From the NCBI RefSeq assembly GCF_009935865.1, contig NZ_QWEL01000006.1, positions 1 to 64,000 of the forward strand: DNA of 64,000 nt, read 5' to 3'. Source of the stretch: Odoribacter sp. Z80 (GTDB taxonomy: Bacteria; Bacteroidota; Bacteroidia; Bacteroidales; Marinifilaceae). Position numbers and translations under genes: made by a program. The notes beneath the pieces are model-generated. The model saw nothing but the letters and a program-made list of their open reading frames with translations, had not been told where the DNA came from and did no database searches. This document shows positions 3,140-30,536 of the stretch, one piece after another; the stretch's first letter is position 1, and each line of letters opens with the position of its first letter.

Positions 3140-4237
3140 ATGGATAACAGATTACTTGTTGGAATCACTCATGGGGATGTGAATGGTATAGGCTATGAGT
3201 TGATTATAAAAATGATGGCGGAAAATAAGATGTGTGAGGTTTGTACGCCTGTGCTTTTCGGTTCTTCGAAAGTAGCCGCTTATCATCGGAAAGTCCTGAA
3301 TATCGAAAATTTTAATTTAAATAGCATACAAAAGGCCCAGGAGGCTAATGCCAAACGCTGTAATATTGTTAATTGTGTAGACGATGCGATCAAGGTAGAC
3401 CTGGGTCAGGAGACAGCAGAGTCGGACGAGGCTGCTATGACGGCTTTAAAAGTGGCTTTGGATGCCTTGGACCGGGAAGATATACAGGTGTTGGTAGGGG
3501 CTCCGCAGGGATGCCGTTCTTTTCAGCCGGCGGAGAGTTGTCCGGCTTTTTTAGCAGCCCGTTATGATGCACGTAATGTGATGCCCTTGCTGGTGGGTGA
3601 AAAGATGAAGATGGGATTTGTTACCCATCATTTGCCTTTCCGGGAGGTGAGTGAGCAGATTTCTGTAAATAATATATTTTACAAGTTGAAATTATTGAAT
3701 AGCTGTCTGCAAAGGGATTTTACAATCCGTAAGCCCCGAATTGCTGTTTTGGGATTGAATCCGCATGTTGGTGAGGGGTGTATGTATGGTGAAGAGGAAA
3801 GAAATATCATTATGCCGGCAATAGAGAAAGCCCGTGATAATGGCATTATGGCATTGGGTCCGTATGCTCCCGATAGTCTGTTTTGCGGGATTGAGTTTGA
3901 AAAATTTGATGTGATTCTGGCGATGTATCATGACCAGGGGATGATTCCGTTTAAGACGATAGAGGGAAATACAGGAGCCGTATTGTTGGCTGGTTTACCT
4001 GTTGTTTATACTTCTACGGTACATGGAACTGCTTATGATATTGTAGGGCAGGGAATCGGAGATGAATCTGCTATGCGAAATGCTGTTTATCTGGCGATGG
4101 ATGTTTATCAGAATCGTACCATGAATGAGGAATTGACCCGAAATCAGTTGAAACATTACGATATTGCTTCCAATAGCAATGAAAGTGATTTGAATGTAGA
4201 ACAAATAGCGGGTGTTAAGAACGATACGGAAGAATAA
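3140..4237 (+). CDS. pdxA: 4-hydroxythreonine-4-phosphate dehydrogenase
   Basis: NAD-dependent, metal-dependent enzyme of the DXP-dependent vitamin B6 route, oxidising 4-phosphohydroxy-L-threonine in the cytoplasm. The 365-aa protein shows the family motifs GDVNGIG near the N-terminus, a His in THHLPFREV, NPHVGEG near 208, YHDQGMIPFKT near 264 and VHGTAYDIVGQG near 294. The three histidines are the expected metal ligands. It appears monocistronic, with its own -7 element and a strong terminator shared with the converging downstream gene. No other pyridoxal genes are present in the window. Confidence 0.95.
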   Translation: MDNRLLVGITHGDVNGIGYELIIKMMAENKMCEVCTPVLFGSSKVAAYHRKVLNIENFNLNSIQKAQEANAKRCNIVNCVDDAIKVDLGQETAESDEAAMTALKVALDALDREDIQVLVGAPQGCRSFQPAESCPAFLAARYDARNVMPLLVGEKMKMGFVTHHLPFREVSEQISVNNIFYKLKLLNSCLQRDFTIRKPRIAVLGLNPHVGEGCMYGEEERNIIMPAIEKARDNGIMALGPYAPDSLFCGIEFEKFDVILAMYHDQGMIPFKTIEGNTGAVLLAGLPVVYTSTVHGTAYDIVGQGIGDESAMRNAVYLAMDVYQNRTMNEELTRNQLKHYDIASNSNESDLNVEQIAGVKNDTEE

Positions 4238-25279: not shown

Positions 25280-26068
25280 ATGATGAAAGCGATAATCAGT
25301 TTTGTGGCGGGAGTGATGTTGTGGGGGATGGCTATGTCCGGCATGGCTCAAACGGAAAGGAAATTCATTCGGGAAGGGAATGATTTTTTTGAAAAGCAGG
25401 ATTTTGAGAAAGCGGAAGTGGAATACCGCAAGGCTTCGGATAAAAGAGCCGAGTCGTTTGAAGCTGCCTTTAACATGGCGGATGCCTTGTATAAGCAAAA
25501 AAAATATGAGGAGGCTTTGTCACAATTTACTGCCTTGGCTAAGAAAGAGACTGATAAAGAACGATTGGGTGAGATTTACCATAATATCGGGAATACTTTA
25601 TTGGCTATGCAAAAGACGGATGAGAGTATAGAAGCGTATAAAGAATCGTTGAGGAATCGTCCTGCTTCAGAACCGACTAAATATAATCTGGAATTTGCCC
25701 GGCAGAAACAACAGCAGGAGCAAAATAAAGACCAGCAGAATCAGGACAAAAACCAAGACCAGGACCAAAACCAGGATAAAGAGGAACAGGATCAGGACAA
25801 AGAGAATCAGAACCAGGATCAGAACCAGGATCAGGGAAAGGACCAGGATAAGAAGGACCAGCAGGAGCAAAATAAAGATCAGCAAAATCAGGATAAAAAA
25901 GACCAGCAAGGTCAGCAGCAGGAACAGCCTTCGAAAATTTCCAAAGAGGATGCTGAGCGGTTGTTAGAAGCTTTGCAGAATGATGAGAAGAAAGTGCAGG
26001 AGAAGGTGCAGAAACAAAAAGTGCAGGAGCAGAAAGCAAAGAAAATGAAAATTGAAAAAGATTGGTAA
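25280..26068 (+). CDS. batC: BatC, TPR protein with a Gln/Asp/Lys-rich linker
   Basis: 262 aa: signal peptide (to about 23), TPR-type repeats at about 30-135 (REGNDFFEKQDFEKAEVEYRKA, YHNIGNTLLAMQKTDESIEAY), then an extreme low-complexity stretch 142-218 of Gln, Asp, Lys, Asn and Glu, then a short helix (SKEDAERLLEALQNDEKKVQ). TPR proteins scaffold complexes and the charged region should be disordered. It overlaps no neighbour and precedes batD by 26 nt. Confidence 0.9.
   Translation: MMKAIISFVAGVMLWGMAMSGMAQTERKFIREGNDFFEKQDFEKAEVEYRKASDKRAESFEAAFNMADALYKQKKYEEALSQFTALAKKETDKERLGEIYHNIGNTLLAMQKTDESIEAYKESLRNRPASEPTKYNLEFARQKQQQEQNKDQQNQDKNQDQDQNQDKEEQDQDKENQNQDQNQDQGKDQDKKDQQEQNKDQQNQDKKDQQGQQQEQPSKISKEDAERLLEALQNDEKKVQEKVQKQKVQEQKAKKMKIEKDW
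25703..25933 (+). repeat. low-complexity coding repeat in batC
   Basis: 231 bp dominated by CAG, CAR, GAY and AAR triplets coding for runs such as KDQQNQDKNQDQDQNQ. It lacks a strict period, so it looks like slippage-prone composition rather than a clean tandem array. The same bases give long artefactual open frames on both strands. Confidence 0.85.
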
Positions 26069-26094
26069 TTTTGCAGGATTTTAAACGTATACAG

Positions 26095-27930
26095 ATGAAA
26101 CAACTCGGATTAGTCATATTATTGTTTGTTTGTTCGTTGGCTTTTTCCCAGAATGTGGAATTTAAGGCATCGGCGCCTTCTGTGGTGGCTGTGGGAGAAG
26201 AGTTCAGACTGTCTTATACTTTGAATAAGGAAGGTTCTAATCTGCAATTGCCGTCTCTGGAAGGATTTGATTTGTTGATGGGGCCCTCGACCAGCCAGTC
26301 TTTTATGTCTTCTACCGTAAACGGACGAACGACCCAAAGTGTGTCTTATACTTATACTTTTGTATTGGAGGGAGTAAAGGAGGGGACTTATGAAATACGT
26401 CCGGCTACGGTAATGGTGGACGGTCGGTCGTATCAATCGAATGGAGTAAAGATTGAAGTTGTCAAGGGAAGCGGAAACGGCGGTACGGGAAACCGCAGGG
26501 AGCATCAGGCCGTACAGCCTGATGCTTCTGCTTCTTTGAATGAGAATAATTTGTTTGTAAAGGTAGAGGTTTCCCGGCGTAATCTGTATATAGGGGAAAG
26601 TCTGGTAGCAACCATAAAGGTGTACTCGAAAGTGGACCTGACTAATTTCGGACGCAGTAAATTTCCTTCTTTTGACGGTTTCCTGGCAGAAGAGGTGCCG
26701 ACACCCCAACGGATTGAATTGGTGCGGGAGAATTATAACGGGCAGATTTATAATGTAGGGGTCATCCGGAAAATGTTATTGTATCCTCAACATACGGGTG
26801 AGATTACCATAGAGCCTTTTGAATTGGAATGTATTGTCCGTCAGCGTCTGACGGGGGGCGGACGCAGTTTCTTTGATGATTTCTTCGGAAATTACCGGGA
26901 AGTCCGGGCCATGCGTCGCAGTAAGCCGGTAGTCGTTCAGGTGAAGGAATTGCCTTTGGCCGGTAAACCGGTTGGTTTTAGCGGTACTGTGGGGAATATC
27001 AGCATGTCTACCTCTATTTCTGCCGATACTGTAGATGCCAATGATGCGGTCACTTATAAGGTTGTTTTCCGGGGAACCGGAAACTTAAAATTATTGCAGG
27101 CTCCTGCTATTAATTTTCCTCTTGATTTTGAAACTTATGACCCCAAAGAATCGCGGGATATCCGGGTGACGGAAAATGGCATGAGCGGGACAGTTTCTTT
27201 TGAATATCTTGTTATTCCCCGTTATTCCGGAGAATATAAGATTCCGGCTGTACAATACTCTTATTTTGACTCTCAAAGCGGTAGTTATAAGATACTTTCC
27301 GGGAAAGAATATAAGGTTTTTGTGCGAAAGGGGACTGAGAAAGGGCTTGCTGGCGGAAATAACGGTAGTACTGTCCATTCTTTTAAAAAGGAGGATATCC
27401 GTCAGGTGGGGGAAGATATTCGTTACATCAAAACAGGTGAGCTGCACCTGAGGCCGACAGGGGTACGTTTTTTGGGGACGCCTGCTTATTGGCTGTCTTT
27501 GTTTATTCCGTTGTTCCTGTTTATTGCGGGGGCTATATTGAACCGGAGAAGAATCAAAGCGAATAGCGATATGGCCCGGGTAAAAAATAAGGCGGCAACC
27601 AAAATGGCCCGGAAGCGGTTGAAAGCGGCTGCATTGGCTATGAAGTCTCACAATGCGGAGCGGTTTTATGAAGAAGTATTGAAAGCTTTATGGGGGTATA
27701 TGAGCTATAAATTGAATATAGACCGGGCCGAACTGAATCGTGATAACATCAGTGATATTTTGCAGAAGAAGGGGGTTCAAGAGAGTGCTTTGAAAGAGTT
27801 TATCGGGGTATTGGATACCTGTGAGTATGCCCGGTATGCTCCGGGGAGTAATTCTGACCAGGAGATGGATAAAGTCTATACTTCCAGTATTGACGTGATT
27901 ACTAAATTGGATAAAAGCATAAAAGGCTAA
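26095..27930 (+). CDS. batD: BatD, large periplasmic membrane-anchored protein
   Basis: 611 aa: signal peptide (KQLGLVILLFVCSLAFSQ), an N-terminal oxygen-tolerance (BatD) domain with several immunoglobulin-like beta domains, a membrane segment near 468-488 (YWLSLFIPLFLFIAGAIL) and a cytosolic helical tail. The frame opens earlier with TTG at 26062, but ATG at 26095 gives the signal peptide. BatD presents its large domain to the periplasm and works with BatA and BatB. The gap to batE is 13 nt. Confidence 0.93.
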   Translation: MKQLGLVILLFVCSLAFSQNVEFKASAPSVVAVGEEFRLSYTLNKEGSNLQLPSLEGFDLLMGPSTSQSFMSSTVNGRTTQSVSYTYTFVLEGVKEGTYEIRPATVMVDGRSYQSNGVKIEVVKGSGNGGTGNRREHQAVQPDASASLNENNLFVKVEVSRRNLYIGESLVATIKVYSKVDLTNFGRSKFPSFDGFLAEEVPTPQRIELVRENYNGQIYNVGVIRKMLLYPQHTGEITIEPFELECIVRQRLTGGGRSFFDDFFGNYREVRAMRRSKPVVVQVKELPLAGKPVGFSGTVGNISMSTSISADTVDANDAVTYKVVFRGTGNLKLLQAPAINFPLDFETYDPKESRDIRVTENGMSGTVSFEYLVIPRYSGEYKIPAVQYSYFDSQSGSYKILSGKEYKVFVRKGTEKGLAGGNNGSTVHSFKKEDIRQVGEDIRYIKTGELHLRPTGVRFLGTPAYWLSLFIPLFLFIAGAILNRRRIKANSDMARVKNKAATKMARKRLKAAALAMKSHNAERFYEEVLKALWGYMSYKLNIDRAELNRDNISDILQKKGVQESALKEFIGVLDTCEYARYAPGSNSDQEMDKVYTSSIDVITKLDKSIKG

Positions 27931-27943
27931 ATTGTCAAAAGAG

Positions 27944-28696
27944 ATGAAAAAGATATTATGCATAGGATTTATACTGTGGTTGGGCCTGGGGAGGATTACG
28001 GCATCCTCTCAGGTTCCGGAACAGGCCGGACAATATTATGCTGAGGGAAAATACAGTGAAGCCGCTGGCCTGTATGAAAGCTTATTGGCTGAGGGGCAGG
28101 AATCTGCCGGATTGTATTATAATCTGGGAAACTGTTATTATAAAATGGGCGAGAATACGAAAGCCATACTGAATTATGAGAGGGCCTTGCTGTTGAAGCC
28201 GGGCGATGAAATGGCCCGTTACAATTTAAAGATGGCTCAACAGGCTATTGTGGATAAAATTGAGGTTTTACCGGAATTGTTTTTGGTCAGATGGTATAGG
28301 GCTTTGGAAAATCATTTTTCTGCTGACCAGTGGGGATATATTTCTGTGGCTTTATTTATTTTGTTTCTCGGTATGGCTGCTTTGTTTTTTTACTCCCGTT
28401 CCATAGGGGTGAAAAAAGTGGGATTTTCGATTGGTATTCTGTCTTTTTTACTGACACTGGGAACAGTGTATTTTGCCATGAGGCAGAATGAGCGGGTTAC
28501 AGAGAGAGAATATGCGATTATTACTACTCCCAGTGTTACCGTCAAAGGAGCTCCTGATAAGAGCGGTACCAGTTTGTTCCTGATTCATGAAGGTTTAAAG
28601 GTAAAAGTCGTCGGAGAGTTAGGTGACTGGTATAATATTCGCTTGGCAGATGGCAATGAAGGCTGGATAGCTAAAGCCGATCTGGAGAAAATCTGA
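27944..28696 (+). CDS. batE: BatE, TPR and SH3-domain membrane protein
   Basis: 250 aa: signal sequence, TPR repeats (AGQYYAEGKYSEAAGLYESLL, LYYNLGNCYYKMGENTKAILNYERALLLKPGD), two membrane segments near 115-150 and a C-terminal bacterial SH3-like domain (EGLKVKVVGELGDWYNIRLADGNEGWI). The TTG at 27932 is possible, but the ATG at 27944 fits the signal sequence. Last canonical gene of the Bat operon. Confidence 0.92.
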   Translation: MKKILCIGFILWLGLGRITASSQVPEQAGQYYAEGKYSEAAGLYESLLAEGQESAGLYYNLGNCYYKMGENTKAILNYERALLLKPGDEMARYNLKMAQQAIVDKIEVLPELFLVRWYRALENHFSADQWGYISVALFILFLGMAALFFYSRSIGVKKVGFSIGILSFLLTLGTVYFAMRQNERVTEREYAIITTPSVTVKGAPDKSGTSLFLIHEGLKVKVVGELGDWYNIRLADGNEGWIAKADLEKI

Positions 28697-28815: not shown

Positions 28816-29925
28816 ATGGAAAATTTTATCGTTTCAGCCCGAAAATACAGACCTGCGAGTTTTGATACGGTGGTGGGGCAGTTGGCTATTACCTCTACTT
28901 TGAGGAATGCCATTGTGAATCACCAATTGGCGCAGGCTTATTTGTTTACCGGTCCGCGGGGAGTGGGCAAAACGACATGTGCCCGTATTTTTGCAAAGAC
29001 CATTAACTGCATGAATCTGCAGCCCAATGCAGAGCCTTGCAACGAATGCGAATCCTGTAAGGCGTTCAATGCCGGGCGTTCGTTGAATATTCACGAATTG
29101 GATGCTGCGTCAAACAACAGCGTGGACGATATCCGGGGTTTGGTGGAGCAGGTAAGGATATTGCCCCAGGTGGGGAAATACAGCGTCTATATCATTGATG
29201 AGGTGCACATGCTGAGTACGTCGGCTTTTAATGCTTTTTTGAAAACATTGGAGGAACCGCCAGCACATGCTGTGTTTATTCTGGCCACTACCGAAAAACA
29301 TAAGATATTACCTACCATCCTGTCCCGTTGTCAAATTTATGATTTTAACCGGATGAAGGTCGGCGATACTGTGGAGCATTTGAAATACATTTCTGCTAAA
29401 GAAGGCGTTACAGCTGAAGAAGCGGCTCTGGATGTGATTGCCCAAAAGGCGGACGGGGCGATGCGGGATGCTCTTTCGATTTATGACCAGGTGGTCAGTT
29501 TTTGCGGAAAAAACCTGACTTATGACCAGGTCATCAAGAATCTGAATGTACTGGATTTCGATTATTATTTCCGGCTGACGGATTTGTTTTATAACGGGAA
29601 AGTCGCAGAGGCTTTGTTGCTTTTTGATGAAATTCTCGGAAAAGGTTTTGACGGAGGTAATCTGTTGGCCGGATTGGGGAAACATTTCCGGGATGTACTG
29701 GTTGCCAGGGAACCGTCTACAGTTCAGCTGCTGGAAGTGAGTGCCGGCGTAAAGGCGCGGTATGCCAAGCAGGCAGAGGAGTGTTCTATTGATTTCCTCT
29801 ATGAGGCTTTAAAAGTGGTGGAGCAATGTGAAATGCAATATAAAGTACGGATGGAAAAGAGGTTATGTGTTGAGATTGCTTTTATCCGTCTTTGTCAGAT
29901 CAATGAATTAAAAAAAAAAATCTGA
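28816..29925 (+). CDS. dnaX: DNA polymerase III subunit gamma (zero-frame dnaX product)
   Basis: The 369-aa zero-frame product contains the clamp-loader AAA+ ATPase: Walker A GPRGVGKT (46-53), the zinc cysteines around CNECESC, Walker B IIDEVHMLS, sensor 1 ATTEKHKILPTILSRCQ and the lid and collar domains. It ends L-K-K-K-I-stop immediately after an 11-A run at 29910-29920. The missing tau part lies in the -1 frame, see the next entries. As in E. coli, a short gamma and a long tau may both be made from this gene; alternatively the A-run is misread by one base. Confidence 0.92.
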   Translation: MENFIVSARKYRPASFDTVVGQLAITSTLRNAIVNHQLAQAYLFTGPRGVGKTTCARIFAKTINCMNLQPNAEPCNECESCKAFNAGRSLNIHELDAASNNSVDDIRGLVEQVRILPQVGKYSVYIIDEVHMLSTSAFNAFLKTLEEPPAHAVFILATTEKHKILPTILSRCQIYDFNRMKVGDTVEHLKYISAKEGVTAEEAALDVIAQKADGAMRDALSIYDQVVSFCGKNLTYDQVIKNLNVLDFDYYFRLTDLFYNGKVAEALLLFDEILGKGFDGGNLLAGLGKHFRDVLVAREPSTVQLLEVSAGVKARYAKQAEECSIDFLYEALKVVEQCEMQYKVRMEKRLCVEIAFIRLCQINELKKKI

Positions 29926-29963
29926 GGGCTTCGGAGTTTTCCGGCCTGTTGAAAATTCCGGGG
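29910..29963 (+). promoter_or_regulatory. dnaX: candidate programmed frameshift or slippage site of dnaX
   Basis: Eleven A (29910-29920) read in the zero frame as TTA AAA AAA AAA ATC TGA, so the slippery heptamer A-AAA-AAA occurs twice in phase (29910-29916 and 29913-29919). TGA follows at 29923. Downstream, CGGAGTTTTC (29932-29941) pairs with GAAAATTCCG (29951-29960), ten pairs with one G-U, and the stem can extend to 29929/29963. The 9-12 nt spacer is close to that of known -1 signals. RNA polymerase slippage on A11 would give the same joined product. Confidence 0.65.
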
Positions 29964-30536
29964 TTTAACGGAAAATATGAATCAGCCACCCGGGAAATAA
30001 AAAATCAGGTTACTTCTTCTTCGTCTGTTCATCGGGCGGCAGAATCTGTCAAAGGACGCCCTGATGCTTCTTTCAAGATCAAGGATTCGTTCCGTGAAGT
30101 CAGCCAGAATCAACCTGTTGCAAAGGTTCGGATAGTGGCGGAGGAAAAAAAAGGGCCAATTTCTGCCAAGGAAGTGATTCAGGAAAAAGGAGTATTGGAT
30201 GCCATCGAAAATTTTATTGCCGTACATCATCCGGAAGTAAGTATTACGAGTGCTTTGCGAAGTCATCGTCCGGTGATTGAACAGGAGCAGATTACTATTT
30301 TTGCAGATAATCAGCTTCAGTTGGAAAAGTTAGAAGCCTTAAAGTCTCATATGCAGAATGCTTTTATGAAAGACCTGAATAATGGTTTTCTTTCCGTAGT
30401 CTTTAAATTGTTTGATGTACAGACCACCAATGAAGAAAAGAAGCTTTTTACTGCCAGTGAGAAATTTGACCATTTTCTGGATCTCAATCCGGTGGTCGGT
30501 GATTTGAAAAAAATTTTCGGACTGGAGCTGGAATAA
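29919..30536 (+). CDS. dnaX: dnaX tau-specific C-terminal region in the -1 frame
   Basis: Read from 29919 in the -1 frame, this continues DnaX for 205 residues (N-L-R-A-S-E-F-S-G onward) to the stop at 30534-30536. The joined tau would be about 573 aa, near the size of intact Bacteroidota DnaX. The end of the chain (DAIENFIAVHHPEVS, FDHFLDLNPVVGDLKKIFGL) looks like the conserved C-terminal domain of this group. It has no good start of its own; a TTG at 29949 is the only nearby option. It is the tail of DnaX, not a separate gene. Confidence 0.8.
   Translation, partial: NLRASEFSGLLKIPGFNGKYESATREIKNQVTSSSSVHRAAESVKGRPDASFKIKDSFREVSQNQPVAKVRIVAEEKKGPISAKEVIQEKGVLDAIENFIAVHHPEVSITSALRSHRPVIEQEQITIFADNQLQLEKLEALKSHMQNAFMKDLNNGFLSVVFKLFDVQTTNEEKKLFTASEKFDHFLDLNPVVGDLKKIFGLELE

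Follow-up and report, generated by a model that had tools for sequence, protein, structure and literature searches.

An A11 Tract Splits dnaX of Odoribacter sp. Z80: Probable RNA Polymerase Slippage at a Poly-A Run Common in Bacteroidota

Organization of the dnaX Locus

The window analyzed here is a 64-kb stretch of the genome of the gut bacterium Odoribacter sp. Z80 (2.56 Mb, 47 contigs). It carries a dnaX gene (28816-30536, forward strand) which, as read from the sequence, is split at a run of eleven adenines (29910-29920). Three genes lie upstream of dnaX at 25280-28696; they appear to code for a TPR protein, a BatD-like protein, and a BatE-like protein and may close a Bat (aerotolerance) operon. 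The locus consists of the following features:

28816..29925, forward strand: gamma ORF of dnaX, 369 aa (ORF list, NCBIfam, Pfam)
29910..29920, forward strand: A11 tract, in the gamma frame TTA AAA AAA AAA ATC (sequence; family comparison)
29923..29925, forward strand: gamma stop codon TGA in the 0 frame (sequence)
29922..30536, forward strand: tail specific to tau, 204 codons of the -1 frame and a stop (frames; profile C-terminus; selection in relatives)
29926..29966, forward strand: 16-bp stem-loop 3′ of the run (fold; comparison with relatives)

The gamma ORF begins with the ATG at 28816 and ends with TTA AAA AAA AAA ATC TGA. Its product spans AAA+ ATPase, lid, and domain III, and the match to Pfam DNA_pol3_gamma3 extends to aa 367. 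The tail occupies 204 codons of the -1 frame (29922-30533) and is closed by a stop codon at 30534-30536. In the NCBIfam search, gamma was aligned with positions 1-364 of the 614 positions of NF011531 and the tail with positions 435-613; the two represent the N- and C-terminal portions of one DnaX profile. Two in-frame A_AAA_AAA heptamers are present in the run (29910-29916 and 29913-29919). The 0 frame is stopped immediately after the run, and the +1 frame stays open over 15 codons. The initial annotation had claimed a dnaX split at A11, a gamma ORF ending at the TGA at 29923, a tau tail continuing in the -1 frame to 30536, and two in-phase heptamers. Each of these claims was borne out by the sequence, and that concerning the tail also by the C-terminal match to NF011531.

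The A11 tract is the only A/T run of at least 9 in the 64-kb window, where the next longest is 8. In the entire 2.56-Mb genome, A/T runs of at least 11 occur at two places only, namely at dnaX and at an A16 tract. Overlapping A9 matches on both strands number 68. AAA accounts for 64% (1184/1850) of the lysine codons outside the run, so the unbroken AAA run is not just a matter of codon preference. The A16 tract (L080, G000:C26:230220-230235) is the longest A run found in the genome, and there is no long open frame at its position. The idea that dnaX is the sole gene with a run of at least 10 was rejected, as L319 holds another A10, at the beginning of an ORF.

The Split in Related Genomes

A run of eleven adenines is a typical site of indel errors, and the split could have come from a homopolymer sequencing or assembly error, or from a recent frameshift mutation that turned dnaX into a pseudogene. 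The count of adenines in related genomes had been named in the initial annotation as a check, with relatives having a single frame and no A-run as the outcome that would speak against a programmed event. The family search covered 56 genomes, 55 of which gave some match, two of them (G032 and G047) too weak for dnaX. From the 53 remaining genomes, 50 loci were read (G003, G038, and G049 were left out), and one of these, L051, was excluded as a broken locus without the frame-setting motif, which left 49 readable loci. All 49 carry A9-A12 at the junction. In 28 of them the gene is split and the tail lies in -1, 19 have a single ORF, always with the run, and in two further split loci the contig ends within the tail. 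The same A11 in the same frame was found in L003, L004, L005, L008, and others; L004 comes from a same-genus assembly (G048) consisting of a single contig of 4,392,288 bases.

The tail was also compared between relatives. In six pairs (L003/L004, L015/L017, L014/L015, L012/L013, L015/L019, and L007/L009) its dN/dS was 0.04-0.24 at dS of 0.1-1.6, so that in the relatives the tail is under purifying selection. In comparisons with the window itself, dS was saturated (infinite) in 8 of 13 cases, and the other five gave ratios of 0.19-0.45 at dS of 1.5-2.5. Because A9-A12 is present in 49/49 family loci and the tails of the relatives are kept by selection, the split is unlikely to come from an assembly slip or a pseudogene. 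This explanation, to which we give next to no credence, can be regarded as largely refuted by the A11 and frame common to several assemblies and by the selection on the tail.

One locus may represent such an error. L045 (G037) has an A9 and is split with the tail in -1, and the near-identical L042, L047, and L048, with the same flanking bases, have an A10 and a single ORF. The one-base difference is either a slip in the assembly or a present-day case of a single base switching the layout. In the excluded L051 (G054:C9), the dnaX match lies in three pieces with frame breaks, probably as a result of poor assembly.

Distribution of the Run in Bacteroidota

Three wider samples were read. The order search gave a match in 187/198 genomes, and 108 loci were read: 17 split -1, 8 split +1, 33 single-ORF with the run, 46 single-ORF without it, and 4 unclear or cut, frequencies that are biased, as split candidates among the matches listed were fetched first. 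In the scan of named genomes, the best 80 of at least 594 loci comprised 42 single-ORF loci with the run, 13 split -1, 1 split +1, 18 single-ORF without the run, 3 truncated at contig ends, and 3 short frames without an A-run (L211, L222, and L243). The named single-ORF loci with the run belong to Pedobacter, Mucilaginibacter, Hymenobacter, Chitinophaga, Dyadobacter, Sphingobacterium, Rikenellaceae, and others, and those without it to, e.g., a Bacteroides sp. and other Bacteroidaceae. The phylum sample gave a match in 196/198 genomes; the 69 loci read, mostly the nearest ones, were 29 single-ORF with the run, 21 split -1, 1 split +1, 16 without the run, and 2 lacking the motif. The no-run rows in this sample come mostly from outside the class.

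Altogether, 307 loci were reduced to 289 rows. Five splits without a readable tail were dropped, three at contig ends (L021, L024, and L188) and two unexplained (L069 and L098), as were seven short frames without a run, either at or near contig ends (L101, L107, L192, and L193) or real (L211, L222, and L243). Three loci without the motif (L051, L312, and L313) and three with identical protein segments were also removed.

The run is accompanied by three layouts: one ORF, a split with tau in the -1 frame, and a split with tau in the +1 frame. The tail is in -1 in 79 of the split run loci and in +1 in 10. Two of the +1 cases (L064 and L056) belong to the same genus and were assembled independently, one as a single contig of 4.3 Mb.

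Two lineages were noted separately. Among the no-run rows, L171, L177, L201, and others are from Bacteroides-like and other Bacteroidales lineages of gut and rumen and have one dnaX ORF. In a distant group of the phylum (f136; g205 and g210), dnaX open frames of ~400 aa are found in many genomes, and the only locus of this group that was read, L314, has an A10 with the tail in -1. The f136 genes may be the Chlorobium-like genes of an earlier study (PMC3711429).

Run Length and Closure of the Other Frames

The longest A-run was scored between codons 228 and 266 past the DEVHMLS-type motif. Its length in the 289 non-identical rows is bimodal: at most 6 in 67 rows, 7-8 in 13, and 9-13 in 209. The 209 long runs consist of 24, 143, 35, 5, and 2 runs of 9, 10, 11, 12, and 13 adenines, respectively, so that 178/209 are of 10-11. 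In control windows of the same genes, the longest A-run was 7 in gamma (n = 578) and 8 in the tail (n = 287), and T-runs at the junction did not exceed 7. All three phases of the run relative to the upstream frame occur, which indicates that the length of the run is kept and not its phase.

A long mononucleotide run with lengths of 9-13 among species could also serve phase variation at the DNA level, in which slipped-strand mispairing alters the run and switches tau on and off. The narrow range of lengths, mostly 10-11, argues against it. Tau is expected to be necessary in every cell, and this mechanism seems highly improbable to us. The frames flanking the run, when closed, fit constitutive dual output instead.

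Closure of these frames is common in the run loci. Both non-tau frames were closed within 8 codons in 197/212 run loci, compared with 10/80 no-run loci, for which codon 240 past the motif was the control position; at random tail positions both frames were closed in 928/4180. By layout, both were closed in 114/123 single-ORF, 73/79 split -1, and 10/10 split +1 loci. The +1 frame was closed in 73/79 split -1 and 114/123 single-ORF loci, and the window is among the 6/79 split -1 loci in which it is not closed within 8 codons. Two of the no-run rows, L058 and L137, have an A10 further on; the no-run class is therefore slightly contaminated, which works against the contrast between the two classes. 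The 80 no-run rows contain 38 in-frame A_AAA_AAN heptamers at codons 195-300 past the motif, some of them inside longer A runs, and 30/38 have a -1 stop no more than 8 codons away.

A FastTree tree of the 289 rows gave nine independent pairs with support whose members differ in the run. Closure of both frames went with the run in 6.2 pairs and against it in 0.2 (averages; median p 0.031). The +1 frame by itself gave a result that is suggestive only, with 5.4 vs. 0.3 pairs and a median p of 0.0625. The fewest changes on the tree were 30 between run and no run and 32 among the layouts of the run-bearing rows; the tree was a quick one, and some of these changes will be errors of tree or assembly.

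The tail could also be made as a separate protein, by internal initiation or coupling, and a TTG-start ORF at 29949 does lie inside the tail region of the window. Among relatives, an ATG (the only start codon counted) was found within the first 25 tail codons in just 3/78 split -1, 3/121 single-ORF, and 2/10 split +1 rows, and in the single-ORF relatives the tail is fused to gamma. Separate synthesis of the tail is therefore hardly credible.

The Downstream Stem

The initial annotation described a 10-bp stem at 29932-29960. A stem is indeed present, but it is larger: the MFE fold has 16 bp, 29926-29941 paired with 29951-29966, and starts 5 nt past the run and 6 nt past the second heptamer. With its 4-bp basal extension included, the stem has an energy of -20.9 kcal/mol and a z of -2.5, and 4/200 shuffled sequences were as stable. 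Its rank within its own gene is an unusual 0.01; for the 14 further family loci listed, the rank was 0.21-0.75. No extra downstream structure was found in the 79 split -1 loci (mean z -0.09; the lowest decile holds 10% of them), and the mean z was -0.16 in the 10 split +1 loci and -0.08 in the 123 single-ORF loci. The stem-loop had been put forward as a stimulator of frameshifting. As a conserved element this role is unsupported, and it was rejected for the group on the basis of a mean z near 0; it is possible for the window only, where the stem may be due to chance or may be a local addition that helps ribosomes to shift.

Ribosomal Frameshifting or RNA Polymerase Slippage

With programmed -1 ribosomal frameshifting, ribosomes that shift on A_AAA_AAA, with the stem at 29926-29966 as stimulator, would give tau, and unshifted ribosomes would give gamma. 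Several features of the window speak for such a mechanism: the in-frame heptamers at 29910-29916 and 29913-29919, a 16-bp stem (z -2.5) located 6 nt past the second of them, at a spacing that resembles that of E. coli dnaX, and a +1 frame left open for 15 codons. The -1 direction is also the one found in 79/89 split loci with a readable tail. Ribosomal frameshifting of this type needs seven in-phase adenines, works in one direction, and never enters the +1 frame. The runs are of 9-13 adenines and not 7, ten split loci require the +1 direction, the third frame is closed in 73/79, the 79 split -1 loci show no excess of downstream structure, and no Shine-Dalgarno-like stimulator was seen by eye upstream in the window. 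The step at nine adenines, the occurrence of both directions, and the closure of the third frame favour polymerase slippage, and we regard ribosomal frameshifting as the sole mechanism as unlikely.

We consider it quite likely, from the comparison of sequences, that the split dnaX yields both forms of the clamp-loader subunit through RNA polymerase slippage on the A11 tract. Transcripts with 11 adenines, or with another number out of register with the tail, would end translation soon past the run and give gamma of ~41 kDa with domains I-III. Transcripts with 12 adenines (11+1; also those with 9 or 15) would be read into the tail and give tau of 573 aa and ~64 kDa. We infer that slippage occurs in Odoribacter sp. 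Z80 and that each of the two proteins has a use. The surplus of splits in -1 (79, against 10 in +1) would follow if insertions of one adenine were commoner than losses. The absence of the run from 80/289 rows and the small number of supported independent pairs (nine) count against the slippage model. A mixed mechanism, in which -1 ribosomal frameshifting contributes alongside slippage, could operate in this species, since the window has the strong stem, in-frame A_AAA_AAA, and an unclosed +1 frame. The proposal of the initial annotation that gamma and tau are made by programmed means thus stands in that the split looks programmed and is unlikely to be an error; it had left the choice between the ribosome and the polymerase open, and the comparison favours the latter.

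For the phylum as a whole, a somewhat bolder reading seems rather probable. Programmed slippage at a tract of 9-13 adenines in dnaX would be phylum-wide, old, and blind to direction, with layouts swapped by single bases. The run would have been lost in Bacteroides-like gut lineages, perhaps together with gamma, and a few lineages may use other recoding (in-frame TAG in L222 and L243). On the same reading, the DNA-encoded product could have swapped repeatedly between tau and gamma (at least 32 layout changes on the quick tree) because all three frames are made anyway.

Comparison with Known Systems

Slippage at the A9 tract of Thermus thermophilus dnaX was reportedly described by Larsen et al. 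in 2000. The window resembles Thermus in having an A-run of at least nine and, probably, gamma and tau from one gene. Thermus dnaX has nearby stops in both other frames; in the window, the 0 frame stops at once and the +1 frame stays open over 15 codons. Unlike in Thermus, where the template encodes tau and slippage leads to gamma, it is gamma that the template specifies in the window. Relatives with a single ORF have the Thermus layout. Slippage at the Thermus A9 tract is treated in PMC1088944 and PMC5009743, and the former states that where slippage gives only a truncated product its importance is hard to judge by sequence comparison. This may be why single-ORF cases have not been listed.

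In E. coli dnaX, -1 ribosomal frameshifting takes place on A_AAA_AAG with the aid of a Shine-Dalgarno-like element and a stem-loop, as summarized in PMC3711429. The two products would be the same in both systems, and in the window, too, a stem follows the slippery run. They differ in that E. coli makes tau in the 0 frame, and the window has only A_AAA_AAA, without the AAG ending. In addition, no Shine-Dalgarno-like stimulator was seen in the window, its stem is not common to the relatives, and both directions occur among the orthologues.

The nearest precedent is the two-ORF dnaX with poly-A reported by Antonov et al. in 2013 for 17 genes from 12 genera, nine of them with 10 adenines, with a -1 shift (PMC3711429). 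Transcriptional realignment was proposed there for two-ORF dnaX, with mixed direction considered a sign of it, and the scan covered 22 Bacteroidetes genomes (PMC3711429). Like the genes described in that paper, the window dnaX has the gamma stop right past the poly-A and needs a DNA-level -1 shift for tau. It differs in having an A11, and in that only the -1 direction is given for those genes, while the relatives of the window include splits in +1 as well as run-bearing genes with one ORF.

According to one review, most other bacteria are without frameshift signatures in dnaX (PMC3290774). Another states that only enterobacteria appear to take the frameshift route to gamma, and names slippage in Thermus and proteolysis in Caulobacter as other routes (PMC4456610). 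A search of the openly licensed literature yielded no paper that deals with slippage at dnaX in Odoribacter, Bacteroidota, or Flavobacteria. The initial annotation held the mechanism to be undescribed for Bacteroidales. This agrees with the absence of an openly licensed paper naming it, but the same architecture was published in 2013, and members of Bacteroidales may already be among the two-ORF dnaX species of that paper (PMC3711429). The architecture of the window dnaX has been known since 2013, and its phylum-wide spread and frame-switching were not found described in the openly licensed literature.

If slippage runs through Bacteroidota, gamma would be selected for across much of the phylum, and its purpose could be tested by comparing run-bearing species with run-less relatives. 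For annotation, it should be kept in mind that such dnaX genes look broken and are probably intact.

Loci with Other Junctions

Several of the loci dropped from the comparison do not fit the slippage model. L069 and L098 have an A10, yet the gamma frame runs for 39 and 44 codons, respectively, past the run before a stop, which the model does not explain. In the case of L211, a dnaX tail of 266 codons lies in the +1 frame near 3649 without an A-run, indicating a different frameshift or an error. Two loci from uncultured Bacteroidales, L222 (2749-2849) and L243 (3560-3660), have no A-run and carry an in-frame TAG at the gamma/tau junction, past which the same frame is open for 201 and 254 codons, respectively. 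The two agree at 32/35 bases around the TAG, a closer match than over the remaining linker, and the other five stop codons inspected at these loci are TGA or TAA. In 393 genomes of the order, a search for the TAG pattern that allowed up to 3 mismatches gave no hit. L222 and L243 are thus candidates for programmed stop read-through or for reassignment of TAG. Together with L211, they suggest that other routes to gamma termination exist in small lineages.
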